Positions 2,125-9,391 of a stretch of DNA of 64,000 bases are shown one piece after another. The notes beneath the pieces were generated by a model. That model did no database searches, was not told the DNA's origin, and worked only from the letters and a program-made list of their open reading frames with translations. The position numbers and the translations under genes were made by a program. The stretch comes from Gammaproteobacteria bacterium (lineage in GTDB: Bacteria > Pseudomonadota > Gammaproteobacteria > Pseudomonadales > Pseudohongiellaceae), in assembly GCA_002731775.1 (NCBI GenBank), contig PCCP01000121.1, forward strand, positions 1 through 64,000, written 5' to 3'. Every line of letters begins with the position of its first letter. The first letter of the stretch is position 1.

Positions 2125-2543
2125 GTAATTGTCCTTATTTGTTATGTACTAACTTTGAATAGCAAATAGTGCCGGATTGATTTAACCAGAAGCAACTGAA
2201 TTTATCCCCTTTGCTTAGCCCCCCGATTTGCAACTATTTGTTTCTGGGCAGGCGGCTTATGATGTATTCTAATATAGTCACGAAGCATGAACAGGCAAGG
2301 AGATACTGGAAACTGGAACGTTTAGTTGGCTGAATAGCGTCGCCAGGGGCCAGGAAATTCATAAACTGATCGGTGGAGCTTAGCTCGGGAATGAGGCAAA
2401 GAAAACCGGTGCGGAATAGCTTTTATTCTGTCTATACACGGCCCGCGGCCCGGACTAGTATTGGAACTCAATTGACATATAGAGTTTGTAGTGAGCAGCA
2501 GCTGCCTCCACACTTCTTCTCGCAGGTATACAGGGGGTATCGA

Positions 2544-3383
2544 ATGAAGGCATTGGTGGGAATTTTCGCCCAGATTCTGGCACTGTTAGTCGCTGTGTCC
2601 CCGATTGCCGCGCAGGATTTGCCGCGGCTGTCCAACGGACGTCCCGATCTGAGCGGCATCTGGCAGGTATTGAACGAGGCGAACTACGATCTCGAACCTC
2701 ACATCGCCCGTCACTCGATGCAGATGCGCGAAGGGCCGGTGAACCCGGTGCCGGCGATCCCCACCTTGCGCCTCGGGGCAGTCGGTGCCGTGCCTGGTGG
2801 GATGGGAGTCATCGTCGGTGGTGGCGAAATTCCCTACACCCCGGAAGCGCGGGCGCTTAAGGAAGAGAACAGGGCGAACTGGATCGACCGCGACCCCGAA
2901 GTGAAGTGTTTCCTGCCCGGAGTACCGCGTGCTACCTATATCCCCATGCCGTTCCAGATCGTGCAGAGCGAAGAAGATTTCTTTATCGCCTACCAGTTCG
3001 CGGGTGCGATACGTGATATTTACCTGGACAATCCGGGGCCCTCGCAAGTTGATTCGTGGATGGGATGGTCGGTAGGCACCTGGGAGGGCGACACCCTGGT
3101 GGTCGATGTGACCGGTCTACACGATGGATCCTGGCTGGATCGGGCGGGCAGCCACCACAGTTACCAGCTGCACGTGGTAGAACGGTACACGATGATCGGC
3201 CCGAACCATATCGACTACGAGGCCACCATCGAAGACCCCGGAGTGCTGACCGAGCCGTTTACCATCAAGATGCCGATCTATCGTCGCATCGAGGAGAACG
3301 CCCGGATAATGGATTTCCGCTGTGTGGAATTCGTGGAAGAGTTAATTTATGGCGAGGCACGCAGATATCCGCTGCCGCGTTGA
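2544..3383 (+). CDS. Secreted protein of the six-member YACHEGNY-related family, short variant
   Basis: 279 residues. Start chosen at ATG 2544 because AGGGGG lies just upstream and the product then begins with a signal peptide (MKALVGIFAQILALLVAVSPIAAQ); a longer frame to 2373 has no such signal. The mature protein opens with NGRPDLSGIWQVLNEAN and carries the family signature WSVGTWEGDTLVVDVTGLHD, then YTMIGPNHIDYEATIEDP. It lacks the C-terminal YACHEGNY block, ending with MDFRCVEFVEELIYGEARR. Function unknown. First gene of a tight operon with 3409 and 4592. Confidence 0.7.
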   Translation: MKALVGIFAQILALLVAVSPIAAQDLPRLSNGRPDLSGIWQVLNEANYDLEPHIARHSMQMREGPVNPVPAIPTLRLGAVGAVPGGMGVIVGGGEIPYTPEARALKEENRANWIDRDPEVKCFLPGVPRATYIPMPFQIVQSEEDFFIAYQFAGAIRDIYLDNPGPSQVDSWMGWSVGTWEGDTLVVDVTGLHDGSWLDRAGSHHSYQLHVVERYTMIGPNHIDYEATIEDPGVLTEPFTIKMPIYRRIEENARIMDFRCVEFVEELIYGEARRYPLPR

Positions 3384-3408
3384 ATAAGTGAGTTTGAGGA
3401 GCTTGGAA

Positions 3409-4545
3409 ATGCGCAATCAAATCAAAACCGAAATAAAGACCTTAAGCCTCGGCATGCTGACCTGTGTCGGTATAGTGCTAGCGCCAATCGCCATGGCCCA
3501 GGGCGGAGGTATTCCCCGTACGCCCAGCGGTCATCCAGATCTGTCCGGCACTTACGACGTATCGACCCTGACGCCAATGCAGCGGCCGACAGCATTTGGC
3601 GACAAACAATTTCTGACTAACGATGAGGCAGCTGTCATTGCCGCTGAGGAATTGCAACGCAGCACCGATCGCCAGCAGGACAGCGATCCCAATCGAAGCG
3701 CTCCGCCACAGGGTGGCGATGGCTCCACCGGCGCCTCCGGCAATGTCGGTGGCTACAATACCTTCTGGATCGATCGCGGCACCGGCGCCTATCAGGTCGA
3801 CGGTCAATGGCGTACTTCGATACTGATTGACCCGCCAGATGGCCGCATGCCGGCAGTCACCGATGAAGCCCGTGCGGCACGCCGTGCCCGGTTTAGCGCT
3901 GGCGAGGGCGCCGCTCCCCGGCGCGAGGGAGGTCAAAACGATGGTACCGCCTACTGGCTGAATGCCGGTCTGGATGCACCCGGGCCCTATGACAACATGG
4001 AACAGCGATCCTTTGCCGAACGCTGCCTGCTGACATTCGGTTCGACTTCGGGCCCACCGATGCTGCCGACGCTATACAACAACCACAAGAGAATCGTACA
4101 GAGCGAGGATACCGTGCTGATCCACATCGAGATGGTGCACGAGGCGAGAATTGTGAGGATGAACGCCGAGCATGATCCCGCGGTAATTCGTAAATGGCTG
4201 GGTGATTCCATCGGTTGGTGGGAGGGCGACGCCCTGGTGGTCGAGACCATCAATTTCAATGACACACCGGCGTTCAGTCAAGGCTCCAGTAACATGAAGG
4301 TGACCGAGCGTTTCCGCATGGAGAGTGCGGACAAGCTGATTTACAGCTTCACCGTGGAGGACCCCTCGATCTGGACCGCGCCCTTCACCGGTGAATATGC
4401 CTGGCCACGCAGCCCCAACAAGGTGTTCGAGTATGCCTGCCACGAGGCGAATTACGCGCTCGAGGGCATCATGAAGGGCGCGCGCCTGCTGGAGGCGGTG
4501 TTCCGTGGCGAGGATCCCGAAGGGGTGCCGAACCCGACCCGCTAA
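3409..4545 (+). CDS. Secreted YACHEGNY-family protein of unknown function
   Basis: 378 residues; GAGGAG at 3396-3401 supports ATG 3409 over an upstream in-frame ATG. Signal peptide ends near VLAPIAMAQ. Family landmarks in order: GHPDLSGTYDVSTLTPMQRP, FWIDRGTGAY, ILIDPPDGRMP, ERCLLTFG, IEMVHEARIVRM, DSIGWWEGDALVVETINFND, FTVEDPSIWTAPF and FEYACHEANYALEGIMKGAR. A Gln/Asp/Pro-rich insertion lies at about 95-125. Twenty-five bases after the previous gene and close to DUF6152, so probably co-transcribed. No catalytic motif recognised. Confidence 0.7.
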   Translation: MRNQIKTEIKTLSLGMLTCVGIVLAPIAMAQGGGIPRTPSGHPDLSGTYDVSTLTPMQRPTAFGDKQFLTNDEAAVIAAEELQRSTDRQQDSDPNRSAPPQGGDGSTGASGNVGGYNTFWIDRGTGAYQVDGQWRTSILIDPPDGRMPAVTDEARAARRARFSAGEGAAPRREGGQNDGTAYWLNAGLDAPGPYDNMEQRSFAERCLLTFGSTSGPPMLPTLYNNHKRIVQSEDTVLIHIEMVHEARIVRMNAEHDPAVIRKWLGDSIGWWEGDALVVETINFNDTPAFSQGSSNMKVTERFRMESADKLIYSFTVEDPSIWTAPFTGEYAWPRSPNKVFEYACHEANYALEGIMKGARLLEAVFRGEDPEGVPNPTR

Positions 4546-4591
4546 TCGGCGTGCAGGAAAGGCGAATATCAACAACGTCAGGAGAAATACG

Positions 4592-5044
4592 ATGCGCAAG
4601 CAAACCCCTGTGATGTTCAGAATCGGTGTGGCGACGCTGGCCCTGACGGGCCTCGTTTTAACCGCCTACGTGCCGGCTGTCGCCCATCATGCCTTCAGCG
4701 CCGAATTCGATCCGAATCGCCCGGTGGTGCTGCGAGGTCCGGTGGTGAGGGTGGAATGGGTGAATCCCCACACCTGGATCCATCTTGAGGTTACCAACGA
4801 GGACGGCAGCAAGACGGTATGGATGGTTGAGGGCGGTACGCCGAACACACTATTGCGGCGAGGTCTGTCCCGCGGCTCGATTCCCATCGGCGCGATGATC
4901 ATCGTCGACGGCTACCAGAGCAAGGACCGCAGTGCCCGCGCCAACGGGCGTGACGTTACCTTCGCGGACGGACGCAAGTTCTTCATGGGTTCATCCGGCA
5001 CCGGCGCGCCACAAGATGGGCGCGACGCCACCGAGCGGAATTAG
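4592..5044 (+). CDS. Secreted DUF6152 family protein
   Basis: 150 residues. AGGAGA at 4580-4585 sets the start at ATG 4592. Signal peptide MRKQTPVMFRIGVATLALTG... ends at VAHHAFSAEFD; the HHAFSAEFD start and the VRVEWVNPHTWIHLEV strand are the hallmark of DUF6152, a small OB-like beta-barrel of unknown function. It often accompanies the secreted proteins encoded just upstream. Last gene of the 2544-5044 operon. The next gene is on the opposite strand. Confidence 0.75.
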   Translation: MRKQTPVMFRIGVATLALTGLVLTAYVPAVAHHAFSAEFDPNRPVVLRGPVVRVEWVNPHTWIHLEVTNEDGSKTVWMVEGGTPNTLLRRGLSRGSIPIGAMIIVDGYQSKDRSARANGRDVTFADGRKFFMGSSGTGAPQDGRDATERN

Positions 5045-5067
5045 CCAACCTGTCAACTTCGCCGGGG

Positions 5068-5604
5068 TCAGGTTTTCGGCGAGTTCACCAGGATCAGATC
5101 TCGAATTGAGTCGAGTGCAGAACGGGCGCACGTCTCAAGTTCTGCATCTGATGCGCTGCTTACCGGGTGATCTATAATGGCAAATTTGTAATCTGGCATA
5201 CCCAGAACCTTGGCCATCAGTTCGGCAGCGCCGACAAAATTGGTGGTCATAATAGCCAACGCAGGGGTACCTGTTCGTTCGCTGCTAATGGCGTCATGCA
5301 AACTGCACGACGAGCAGCTGCCTCAGTCACCGAGCCCTGTAATGGCCAGGTCCCAGTTTTTGGCCTCGTCGATAATCGACTCTTCTGCGGGCGCACTGTA
5401 GTTTGATTTCATGCGCAGCACGACGTTGGCAACTTCATAGCGCTCTCGCAACAGTCTATCCAGGTGAGCAAAGAATCCAGCCGTTCCTTCTTTGCCGTTG
5501 GAAATAAAACCAACTGTTTTGCCGCTTAGGGATTTCAGGCGCGCAGCCGGTTTTATCTCTTGTGGATTGGCTTCACTAGTAGGGTCAAGTACGCGAATTG
5601 TCAT
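5068..5604 (-). CDS. UGSC-family selenoprotein with in-frame TGA as selenocysteine
   Basis: 178 residues if TGA at 5323-5325 is read as selenocysteine 94. The two halves, seen separately as 119- and 77-residue frames, are in the same frame and join as GLGD-U-GSCSSCSLHDAISS. That is the UGSC redox motif known from marine selenoproteomes: Sec94-Gly-Ser-Cys97, with Cys100 close by. The first half has KTVGFISNGKEGT and LDRLLRERYEV, a Rossmann-like start. Start ATG 5604 is preceded by GGAG at 7 bases. A SECIS-like hairpin follows the TGA. The final stop TGA (5068-5070) lies inside a GGGGTCAGG repeat motif. Probable cytosolic thiol/selenol oxidoreductase; substrate unknown. Confidence 0.88.
5281..5318 (-). 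promoter_or_regulatory. Predicted bacterial SECIS hairpin
   Basis: Read on the minus strand just after the TGA: lower stem GCTGCT (5318-5313) pairs with AGCAGC (5286-5281), with a 5-base bulge on the 3' side. Upper stem CGTCGTGCA (5312-5304) pairs with TGCATGACG (5300-5292), 9 pairs with one G-U. The loop is GTT (5303-5301). The loop G is 19 bases after the TGA, inside the spacing known for bacterial SECIS elements that bind SelB. The structure is read by eye; no folding energy was computed. Confidence 0.75.
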
Positions 5605-5644
5605 CAACATGCTCCAATTAGTTAACTCATACCTGATGCGATAC

Positions 5645-6703
5645 TCAAGAGTTCCCGGGTGGCTCACAATCAACACAGGCACCGATGGCTACCGTGACGG
5701 CCAGGCTCTTGCTGCCAAGCCATGGCGGAATAATTACACCGAAGCCACCGGCTGGCCCGCCGGCAGCGACCACAAGCAGATGATCGGGGGAAGGTAGCGC
5801 TGTGTATTCGATATCGCCCTTTCCCCGAACCACTGATCCCTTGCCGACGTTAGACCATTCGCCTCGCTTGATTCTGGCGGTACGAAACAGGTATTCCGCA
5901 ATGTCTGATTTTGTCCAGCCAGCACTCTGAAGATGGTCACGATGTTGTTTGGGAATTACGACTACATAGTTGCCTGACCAAATCGAATAATTGCGCATAT
6001 TGGCACGCATCTCTGCGGCATAGGTATCGAGAATTTCTTCCGGTTTAGTGGTCCATTCATTCATGATTTGTCGCGGCGCTCCAGAAGCAAAGACGGTAAC
6101 GGCTGAGGCGTCGCCTGGAATATCTCTGGTCTCGGCGACGGATTGCCACCGGGTGCCTTCTTCATCTTCCGCAATGCAGTAACTTATCTTGCCGGGATGG
6201 CCGAGGGTTGATCTGTCGATGGCGCCAGGACTCACTTCCAGTATATTAATTAGCCCGAGGCGAATGGCCCTGCCAATGACCGAAGTGGCCCTGTCGCTGC
6301 TTCCCAGGACATTGAAATCGCTACGGGTGTCGATCTCTTTTCTTATCGGGCCGTTGAGAATAATCAATATTGCACAACCGCCCGTACTTGCAGTAGCCCC
6401 ATGTAATAGAAACTCTGGCTTCAACATCGCCACCCATGCCGCGACCACAACCGGAAAATGGTTTGGCAAACAACCTGCCATTACCGCGTTTATTGCCAAC
6501 TTTTCTGCGATAACTGGGCGTTCTCTAACAGGCTCAACACCGATCAACTCTTCGGCTGGCATGTTCACCCAGTCAAGACAGGCTTTTACAGCTTCGGGAG
6601 TTGGCGGCACGATGGGAAAGCCATCGGTCCAGCCCCGACTGTGGTAAAACTCCTGGACATCGCAAGAAGCATTCAAATCATAATATTTCGATAACAGATT
6701 CAT
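5645..6703 (-). CDS. Conserved partner of the UGSC selenoprotein, C-terminal CxxC
   Basis: 352 residues, no signal peptide, so cytosolic. Features: FYHSRGWTDGFPIVPPTPE near the N-terminus, LAINAVMAGCLPNHFPVV at about 70-88, GATASTGGCAILIILNGP, DHLLVVAAGGPAGGFGVIIP near the end, and a terminal CVDC (Cys343, Cys346). I do not recognise a characterised enzyme family. It ends 40 bases upstream of the selenoprotein start on the same strand, so the two are probably one operon and one reaction system. Its ATG overlaps the stop of a remnant frame (ATGA). Confidence 0.65.
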   Translation of the reverse strand: MNLLSKYYDLNASCDVQEFYHSRGWTDGFPIVPPTPEAVKACLDWVNMPAEELIGVEPVRERPVIAEKLAINAVMAGCLPNHFPVVVAAWVAMLKPEFLLHGATASTGGCAILIILNGPIRKEIDTRSDFNVLGSSDRATSVIGRAIRLGLINILEVSPGAIDRSTLGHPGKISYCIAEDEEGTRWQSVAETRDIPGDASAVTVFASGAPRQIMNEWTTKPEEILDTYAAEMRANMRNYSIWSGNYVVVIPKQHRDHLQSAGWTKSDIAEYLFRTARIKRGEWSNVGKGSVVRGKGDIEYTALPSPDHLLVVAAGGPAGGFGVIIPPWLGSKSLAVTVAIGACVDCEPPGNS

Positions 6704-6978: not shown

Positions 6979-7653
6979 TTAGAGGGTCTGGTGTTCAATT
7001 CCACAACTATAACAAGAGGTCATGACGCTCCTGGCCTTCTGGATTGCTCTCCCCCTCAGCAGTGTATCGCCGTCATGGTCTTTGAAAGCATAGCTTGGGG
7101 CCACTCCTGCCTCAAGAAACTGTCGGTAGTTTCACCGCGCATTGCGTCTTTGACTTCCAAATAGCAAGAGCACAAACTCAGCATCCAGGAATTCTGACCC
7201 ATGTTTTCCCATGAGGGCGGCGTGTCCTGTCCAGCGCTAAGCTTCCAGCGAATGCAAATCGGGGACCATATGAGCTTTGAGTGGATCAAGATGGATATAG
7301 CGAATTAATTCGAGAAGATACGGATCTTCCTCACATAAGATCGAGCGATATCTTCCGTGATAAAGATATCCGACTCTCTCGTTCCTTCGGTTATAGCCCT
7401 GGGCATATGCGCCCAGCAATAGCCCCGTCATCTCTGGCAAGCTCCTCGAGCCCTGCCTCGGCAACAGATGATAATGATTGTCCATCAAAGCCGAGGCCTA
7501 ACAATTATCCTCACCTGAGCGCAGACCATTTCCCAGCCTAATAAGGAAGTCCCGTTTATCGACATCGGCGGAAAATATCTGACGTCGGTCAATAGCTCTT
7601 CCAATTATGTGGATTAATCCACCGGGAAAACTCAATGTGCCTATCCTTGGCAT
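6979..7653 (-). pseudogene. Decayed REP-associated (IS200-like, Y1) transposase
   Basis: A single reading frame from ATG 7653 to TAA 6979-6981 is broken by three nonsense codons and no frameshift. The N-terminus (FPGGLIHIIGRAIDRRQIF, DVDKRDFLIRL) fits the RAYT family. The middle has MDNHYHLL, the HxH of the Y1 active site, then GYLYHGRYRS and LLELIRYIHLDPLKA. The C-terminus has ALMGKHG and NYRQFLEAGVAP. Stops replace Tyr before MDNHYH, Tyr after HSLEA and probably Trp after RRNAR. RAYTs mobilise REP repeats, which fits the GGTCAGG repeats around the window. Confidence 0.85.
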
Positions 7654-7821: not shown

Positions 7822-9254
7822 TATTCGTCGATCGTCTTCAGCACCTCTCGGGTCAGGCTCCAGCGGTCGAAGCCCTGGCGTCCGTAATCGAGGCCACGGC
7901 GAACGATGACCATATTGTGAGAGGGTACCACCACAGTATATTGACCGCGGTTGCCGGAGGTCGAGTAGGCATCCGTCGGTACGTCATCCCGACCCTCGGG
8001 TACCAACCACCACTGGCCACCATAGTGACCGCCCTTGCCAACCGTTGCCGGGGCTGGCGTACGCACGAAATCGATCCAGTCTTCAGAAATCAGGCGCTCG
8101 CCATCCCACATGCCGTTCTGTAGGTAGAGCAGGCCGAATCGCGCCAGGTCTCTCGCGTTGGTATACACCTGGCTGCTGAGGATGAAGTCGCCGAAGCGAT
8201 CCGTGCTCACCAGCGTATTGCGCATACCAATCCGGTCCAGCAGCGCTCGCCTGGGAAACTCCGCGTAGGCTTTTTCACCCCCCAGTGCCAGCTTCATGGC
8301 GTACACAGCGAGCAAGGTGTCGTAATTCTCGTAGTCCCAGTAGGTACCGGGCTCCCGAATCAGGGCTCGACTGCGGGCGCCGACAACCGAACTCGCGCCT
8401 GCCCAATAGGACAAGCCGGACCCTGTAGCATACTCGCGGCCGCGATTGTCTATGGTGTCCAGGCCGCTGGACATATTGAGCACATGGCGAAGGGTAATCT
8501 GCTTGCGGGGATCCGTCTCCGCAGACCGGTTCATTGGATACCAATCGAATCCCAGCGGTTCATCCAGCGACATCCTGCCCTCGTCAACCAGCATGCCGAT
8601 GAGTGTAGTGGCAATACTCTTGGCCGTAGACCAAGTGCGGGTACGAGTGGTGGCGTCGAAGCCGGTTGCGTAGCGCTCGTGAATTATATCGCCGTTGTAT
8701 ACCACGATCAGGCTCAGTGTGACCTGCTCTTTGGAGTCTCGATCGAAGGCCCAGTCGGAAGCGGCCTGCAGGGCAGCAGCATCGACTCCTGCGGGCAGTC
8801 CACTGCTGTTGACGAGATCACCATTGGGCCATGGAATCCGGGCGGGATCGCCTGGTGGTAGTGGCAGGGTCAGCTCCGGCAGGCTGTCGATATCCGCAAG
8901 CGTCTGGTCGGGAGGCAGGATCACACAGCCGATGCCCTCGCGAAAAACGGCCCGCATTACCGGTACCGCGCCGCTGGCGCCGATTTCTACGGCACGTCGA
9001 TTCCAGTCGATGTTGTAGTCGCCGCCGTCGGCGCTACCGATAGGCTCACGGAAGAAGGCCAGTTCCTGGGCGAAAATCTGTTCCAGGCTGCGGTTGGACG
9101 TGAACAGTCCGTTGCACATGAATACCGCCTGTTGGCCACGTTGCACCATAGCCCGCTGCGGCTGCCAGTAATCGTAGTTTTCCTCCTGTTGCGCCAAGGT
9201 GGAGACCGGCAGCAGGAGCGTGAGAGTGAATAGCGAAATCGCGAGGTGCTTCAT
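7821..9254 (-). CDS. Exported serine hydrolase, class C beta-lactamase-like
   Basis: 477 residues with signal peptide MKHLAISLFTLTLLLPVSTLA. ATG 9254 is preferred: GGAGGG lies 7 bases upstream and the alternative TTG at 9269 overlaps that site. The catalytic SxxK is STAKS (Ser209, Lys212), followed by GMLVDEGRMSLDEPL and a YEN-type motif in WDYENYDTLL, then SSQVYTNARDLARFGLLYL. These mark the beta-lactamase/penicillin-binding-protein transpeptidase fold, often acting as an esterase or D-amino peptidase. The long 170-residue N-terminal extension is unassigned. Not evidence of drug resistance. Confidence 0.85.
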   Translation of the reverse strand: MKHLAISLFTLTLLLPVSTLAQQEENYDYWQPQRAMVQRGQQAVFMCNGLFTSNRSLEQIFAQELAFFREPIGSADGGDYNIDWNRRAVEIGASGAVPVMRAVFREGIGCVILPPDQTLADIDSLPELTLPLPPGDPARIPWPNGDLVNSSGLPAGVDAAALQAASDWAFDRDSKEQVTLSLIVVYNGDIIHERYATGFDATTRTRTWSTAKSIATTLIGMLVDEGRMSLDEPLGFDWYPMNRSAETDPRKQITLRHVLNMSSGLDTIDNRGREYATGSGLSYWAGASSVVGARSRALIREPGTYWDYENYDTLLAVYAMKLALGGEKAYAEFPRRALLDRIGMRNTLVSTDRFGDFILSSQVYTNARDLARFGLLYLQNGMWDGERLISEDWIDFVRTPAPATVGKGGHYGGQWWLVPEGRDDVPTDAYSTSGNRGQYTVVVPSHNMVIVRRGLDYGRQGFDRWSLTREVLKTIDE

Positions 9255-9391
9255 AGGAGGTCCCTCCAATTGAGTAGGCAGATCATAGAAGCTAGCCGGG
9301 CTTATGTCTACGCCACGCTGTAGTCACTGTCTTTGCTGGCGGATAAGAAGCGTCTATCGCGATATGGTGCTTTTCCCCCCATGGCGCCGCA

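Follow-up and report, generated by a model that had tools for sequence, protein, structure and literature searches.

A UGSC-family gene with a predicted selenocysteine codon, its near-constant neighbour and its probable kinship with GrdB

A bacterial SECIS element is a hairpin that lies just 3' of the UGA, with its apical loop about 16–37 nt off and a G in the first two bases of the loop. UGSC is an already known protein family (PF24696 in Pfam, NF041046 in NCBIfam), with a GD-U-GSC motif in which the U position is held by Sec or Cys. In the GOS paper (PMC2398784) UGSC is most frequent in nonmarine samples, and the protein is supposed, there and in PMC13188914, to be thioredoxin-like in fold. 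The window analysed here, which is the whole 64,000-nt stretch of a Pseudohongiellaceae genome, adds one member to this family. We describe its in-frame TGA and, beyond what the original prediction named, a conserved upstream neighbour that we call NB and a probable relationship to the Sec domain of the GrdB/PrdB reductases.

The UGSC gene and its in-frame TGA

The ORF list made with translation table 11 shows two separate frames at this locus, 5323..5682 (119 aa) and 5068..5301 (77 aa). When the TGA at 5325..5323 is taken as a residue, both frames merge into one protein of 178 aa, MTIRVLDPTSE...WDLAITGLGD-U-GSCSSCSLHDAI...NSPKT, which starts at the ATG at 5604 behind a GGAG (Table 1); the first TGA is residue 94 and the second is the end. 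The original prediction held that two hypothetical frames hide a single gene whose read-through yields GLGD-U-GSCSSC. Translation of the minus strand agrees, giving the motif GLGD-TGA-GSCSSC of the (U/C)GSC type, and the joined protein is UGSC by PF24696 (E 6.4e-49, 166.8 bits against a cut-off of 25, residues 4–171). NF041046 gave 125.7 bits, so that the gene is a family member by Pfam and, narrowly, by NCBIfam (cut-off 125). Both this gene and NB terminate in TGA and, therefore, TGA is not generally reassigned here.

Table 1. Coordinates of the features described, as positions in the window
Feature	Position	Strand	Basis
UGSC-family selenoprotein gene (predicted), 178 aa	5068..5604	minus	read-through translation, PF24696, NF041046; stop TGA 5070..5068
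In-frame TGA, predicted Sec94	5323..5325	minus	same-codon TGA in close and more distant relatives
Putative bacterial SECIS hairpin, 6 + 9 pairs, GUU loop 19 nt after TGA	5281..5318	minus	fold, shuffles, stem conservation
GGAG, possible ribosome-binding site of the UGSC gene	5612..5615	minus	inference from sequence
Partner NB, 352 aa	5645..6703	minus	ORF; directly upstream of UGSC gene, same orientation; linkage

Five relatives were compared, each with TGA at this codon, and the same-codon TGA recurs in relatives at 59–94% protein identity as well as in more distant ones. Differences from the window in one relative (L029), counted at codon positions 1, 2 and 3, were 2, 1 and 9 downstream of the TGA and 4, 4 and 14 upstream of it. 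Changes downstream of the TGA favour third codon positions, as they do upstream of it, and this together with the five shared codons upholds the earlier judgement that a chance stop is unlikely. In a tree of 52 rows (window included), 45 have Sec and 7 have Cys at position 94, as expected if homologues carry U or C at this residue; the tree needs three changes at this position, two of them forced by well-supported branches. A single open-frame exception was found: in L087, a divergent protein that joins UGSC and NB in one ORF, the Sec position is Met, and this row was left out of the counts. Also left out were L024, which has Cys at the position but is a frameshifted gene with TGA elsewhere, L061 and L047, both truncated at a contig end, L048, which is frameshifted, L035, whose sequence contains an N, and, as duplicates, L021, L028 and L056-L059. 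Four of these, L035, L047, L048 and L061, carry TGA where Sec is predicted. C100 is variable among relatives (Trp, Tyr, Ser and others) and C97 is better kept.

Folding of 5325..5276 produced the 15-pair two-part hairpin with a G-first loop 19 bases past the TGA that had been predicted, with six lower and nine upper pairs, a bulge of 5 nt in the 3' strand between them and a GUU loop. The loop distance and the first loop base agree with the bacterial SECIS rule. The minimum free energy of this 50-nt cut is -21.5, compared to -14.5 ± 2.5 for shuffled sequences (z -2.83), and none of 200 shuffles was as stable, which answers the RNA folding check proposed for the region near the TGA. Three further cuts gave z -2.33 (4/200 shuffles as stable), -2.57 (2/200) and -1.04 (27/200), the last being the shortest and too short for the lower stem. 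An Rfam search of 4600-6000 returned no SECIS family and two unrelated matches (E 1.1 and 4.4).

Conservation of the stem was counted in 43 distinct Sec sequences, the window included; this count takes in L035 and L048 and leaves out L047 and L061. All of the upper seven pairs are present in 36 sequences and six of the seven in a further 4, and the remaining three, all divergent, keep 0 (L086), 2 (L095) and 5 (L094). The observed mean of 6.6 pairs compares to 4.2 in synonymously recoded sequences (maximum 4.8 in 1000), a null that ignores relatedness. Cys forms keep a mean of 3.3 of the seven pairs (seven distinct sequences), and the 7-bp upper stem is not kept in them. In L027, L069 and L078 pair 20-26 is flipped from C-G to G-C, and Cys100 is Trp in these three; from the sequences, such a flip is the kind of compensatory change that would be expected for a selected stem. 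Folding energies of individual sequences against synonymous recoding were mixed, with z from -3.5 to +1.56 (48 Sec windows, two duplicates, the window itself left out), and the SECIS case therefore rests on the stem pairs. The Sec-type genes of L094, L095 and L086 depart from the CGTGCA-GTN-TGCACG hairpin pattern, and their SECIS, if any, is differently built.

The Sec machinery, named beforehand as a check, was detected as a full set in the window's genome. Profile searches of that genome gave selA at 518 bits (cut-off 22.8), selB at 408 bits (cut-off 242) and selD at 277 bits (cut-off 125). The tRNA-Sec (selC) scored 63.7 bits (gathering threshold 47), with anticodon tca by ARAGORN; this search is the least specific of the four, since 5 of 14 control genomes pass its cut-off as compared to 2 of 14 for each of selA, selB and selD. 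The two separate frames of the plain ORF list would also be seen if the TGA were a real stop, arising from a pseudogene or a sequencing error, with the downstream frame a remnant. However, the same codon is TGA in separate assemblies of diverged relatives, changes downstream of it are biased to third codon positions, the SECIS stem is kept with a compensatory flip, and the sel genes are in the genome; the chance of a real stop is negligible. The comparisons of sequence indicate that 5604..5068 almost certainly encodes Sec, with the UGA at 5325..5323 decoded as Sec94.

The partner NB and its thioredoxin fusions

Up to E 1, the NB protein of the window had no match in Pfam or NCBIfam, and 26 NB members searched against families gave scattered single-member matches only (best E 0.049). 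NB lies on the same strand as UGSC in 54 of 57 UGSC loci (window not counted; many loci are close relatives). It is upstream in 48 of the 54, within 265 nt in 47 and at 2,170 nt in one, and downstream in 6, two of which (L086 and L087) are fusions that share one ORF with UGSC. At L042 no NB lies within 5 kb, but that genome has one on the same strand, ~6 to 10 kb upstream, and at L061 and L095, both at contig ends, no NB was seen. L088 and L089 stand outside the locus count, having no UGSC match to the profile built here.

Among 296 genomes of Actinomycetota (the phylum of G398), UGSC exceeded the cut-off in 22, and NB is present in all 22. NB occurs in 24 of the 296; the two without a detected UGSC are G584 and G690 (weak match). 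G597 and G672 have a UGSC match below the cut-off and no NB. In the window's own phylum UGSC and NB are both found in the same 5 of 398 genomes, the window's genome included, so that NB accompanies UGSC in 27 of 27 sampled genomes with UGSC over the cut-off (22 + 5). The NB profile derives from genes that neighbour UGSC and may therefore miss some NB elsewhere. The original prediction had described UGSC as known from marine selenoproteomes; the family identity stood, and the family is not limited to marine samples, given the nonmarine samples of the GOS paper and these Actinomycetota genomes. On one contig of 9.2 kb (L148, G584:C272), two proteins each consist of tandem NB-NB, and no UGSC match was found on it. 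The NB family extends beyond its pairing with UGSC. This pattern of linkage and co-occurrence makes it very likely that NB and UGSC act together.

Six NB residues, D27, C78, T107, R145, D163 and E179, are near-invariant (55 or 56 of 56 sequences) and, by their conservation, are candidates for the NB active site. Such residues could also be read to mean that NB alone does the chemistry and that UGSC is a regulatory or redox-sensing subunit, a reading to which the tandem NB-NB proteins without a UGSC match on their contig and the Met at the Sec position of fused L087 lend some weight. However, Sec is a costly residue and it is kept in 45 of 52 rows, and UGSC probably shares its descent with a Sec domain of reductases (see below). 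We consider a purely regulatory UGSC unlikely and favour an active role for both proteins.

No clear match to a known fold emerged for NB. Class I fumarases and cyclic-amide hydrolases reach TM-scores of 0.20-0.25 to the query. VIA-align returned no Z of 8 or more for NB, and its rows fell mostly on residues 177-329. The NB profile showed no detectable relation to the GrdE, GrdB or UGSC profiles (its comparison with 12 GrdE-like proteins gave probability 0.15 and E 0.39), and PDB sequence searches with UGSC, NB and both profiles gave nothing meaningful. The neighbourhoods of 33 loci held no near-constant third gene; antisense frames of GC-rich DNA clutter the clustering. By eye, ATP-binding transport proteins, acyl-CoA dehydrogenase-like proteins and enoyl-CoA hydratase-like proteins come back in some neighbourhoods. 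In the window, three genes on the plus strand (2373-5041) converge on the UGSC gene; one is DUF6152, and the other two, of 336 and 385 aa, have no Pfam family. L029 has a similar convergent set by eye. Upstream of the UGSC-NB pair are, on the minus strand, two adjacent short frames at 7237-7653, which resemble a broken REP-associated transposase and have no Pfam match, and a serine beta-lactamase-like hydrolase at 7824-9269 (PF00144, E 9.3e-31).

An N-terminal domain is common to 15 NB proteins, which were chosen by eye because a CxxC precedes their NB domain and which include a paralogue from the window's own genome. It has an invariant C-x-T-C, a V-P-T motif and, further on, PGCGS. A profile of these 15 domains matched PDB thioredoxins (best E 7.5e-7), and single searches with three of the proteins gave one Pfam thioredoxin match, below cut-off. 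The NB of the window is without this domain. The genome holds a second UGSC gene with one TGA on another contig (C50:6667-7161). It forms part of a second UGSC-NB pair (L062:5158-7161), with the TGA and a SECIS stem (L026 in the stem count). The NB of this pair carries the thioredoxin domain at its N-terminus, with CPTC. A set of genes that by eye resembles an ABC transporter of the branched-chain amino acid type follows at a distance of 3-8 kb.

Fold of UGSC and kinship with GrdB

In the AlphaFold2 model of UGSC (pLDDT 88.7) strand and helix alternate five times in a Rossmann-like arrangement, and residue 94 lies just before helix 95-110. On this prediction UGSC is a single alpha/beta domain of Rossmann-like type, in which Sec94 opens the helix that follows strand three, and C97 and C100 come shortly after it. 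The best PDB structural matches of the model are Rossmann-like alpha/beta folds from many families (Z 10.9 and down), and thioredoxin is absent among the 50 matches listed in each of two structural searches. These results bear on the supposition in the literature that UGSC is a thioredoxin-fold thiol oxidoreductase with a UxxC active site. The UxxC-type motif agrees with it, but the modelled fold and its listed matches do not, the UGSC profile matches GrdB, and thioredoxin occurs instead as a domain fused to NB. A thioredoxin fold for UGSC appears, on this evidence from a predicted model, improbable.

A second alternative is that the (U/C)GSC region binds a metal or an Fe-S cluster, the protein serving as carrier or scaffold and not as a reductase. 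Weak matches to CIAPIN1, a protein of Fe-S biogenesis, were obtained in 11 of 25 UGSC members (best E 0.048), and NifU matches in 2 of 25 (best E 5.5e-7). Two Cys-type Actinomycetota UGSC genes, L049:4998-5768 and L050:4989-5816, have a C-terminal extension that contains a NifU-like domain (in L049 E 5e-4, below cut-off). The top structural match (Z 10.9) is to the methyl-coenzyme M reductase activation complex, known by the label chain H alone; according to PMC12176620, McrC and Mmp7 of this complex hold Fe-S clusters. However, C100 is not kept among relatives, which leaves only U94 and C97 as shared ligands. We regard a cluster-binding role as improbable, and a redox-active Sec domain as the better reading.

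In an hhalign comparison, 56 UGSC sequences matched 20 GRDB-family sequences with probability 94 and P 1.5e-7 over 127 columns, Sec falling on Sec. The score of 57.5 compares to a maximum of 26.5 in 200 column-shuffled controls, 21.3 for the reversed profile and no more than 21.3 in 46 that were reversed and rotated; a Rossmann-family null is not among these controls. The match persisted against 13 full GrdB sequences only (E 7.8e-5) and with 5 Cys-type relatives only (E 7.3e-4). A first, shallow comparison had given P 0.055, and the later signal needed deep alignments. Single-sequence searches with 25 UGSC proteins gave no match to PF07355; they matched TIGR01917 in 5 (best E 0.0032), GrdF in 4 (0.0024) and GrdH in 1 (0.0015), and WcaK, an unrelated family, in 12 (best E 5.8e-4), at least as well as the GrdB families. 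A phmmer search with one GrdB (L098) found no PDB relative, so the comparison is one of sequence profiles only. From the profile match we take it as likely that UGSC and the C-terminal Sec domain of the GrdB/PrdB reductases share an ancestor.

The GrdB-type loci have a TGA of their own. It stands at the Sec position in 13 of 13 GrdB-type genes and in two PrdB-like genes (L098-L110, L116, L117); an example of GrdB-family read-through, from the phylum of G398, is ...AAILTST-U-GTGTRCGSTLAKELERAGIPT...IPYPAGDP. Two full-length GrdB proteins tested were selenoprotein B by TIGR01918 (439 and 462 bits). A GrdE-like frame accompanies 12 of the 13 GrdB loci and is upstream in the four listed.

A possible two-protein reductase and its place among known systems

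The whole explanation that we propose, a UGSC selenoprotein with Sec94 inserted through a SECIS element, a GrdB-like Sec domain and a two-protein enzyme formed with NB, is probable. A somewhat less firm step, drawn by analogy and still rather likely, is that NB and UGSC would form a selenol-based reductase fed by thioredoxin. The SECIS hairpin just past the UGA would recruit SelB with Sec-tRNA, placing Sec at residue 94. NB may bind or activate the substrate, and the Sec94 selenolate would then attack it and take over a group or electrons. The resulting intermediate could be resolved as a selenenylsulfide by C97, the better kept of the two cysteines, or by C100. Thioredoxin, which many NB paralogues carry as a fused domain and which would here be a separate protein, may re-reduce UGSC. 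Glycine reductase has a Sec-bound intermediate, which is the source of the analogy. Its chemistry is not simply transferable, because NB is not detectably related to GrdE; the substrate, therefore, need not be an amino acid.

Searches of the literature on UGSC, GrdB, PrdB and thioredoxin returned no title or abstract opening that links UGSC with GrdB. As far as these searches reach, the partner NB, the thioredoxin link and the GrdB kinship are new here. With the placement beside GrdB, the near-constant partner and the thioredoxin fusion, what was a 'Trx-like protein of unknown function' becomes the subject of an enzyme hypothesis that can be tested. More tentatively, and with the odds slightly against it, NB and UGSC may represent an undescribed class of selenium-dependent reductases in Pseudomonadota and Actinomycetota. 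In such a class the GrdB-type Sec domain would be re-used without GrdE, with NB as a new substrate subunit and direct coupling to thioredoxin, for the reductive cleavage of a substrate.

Compared to the described UGSC family, the gene itself shows no difference: it shares the near full-length match, the GD-U-GSC motif, the Sec/Cys position and the SECIS. The UGSC/Unknown_1 fusion in the GOS paper joins UGSC to another domain, as do L086 and L087. The comparison with GrdB, GrdF, GrdH and PrdB (PF07355, TIGR01918) is more divided. At 178 aa, UGSC is without the N-terminal part of GrdB, and there is no detectable relation between the neighbour of GrdB, GrdE, and the neighbour of UGSC, NB. UGSC keeps a Cys at +3 from Sec, unlike the eight GrdB listed, whereas 7 of these eight have a Cys at +6, where UGSC has C100. 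The two nevertheless align Sec on Sec in their profiles, and they have in common E and G-(I/T)-P in the helix that follows and a P within the end of a late strand.
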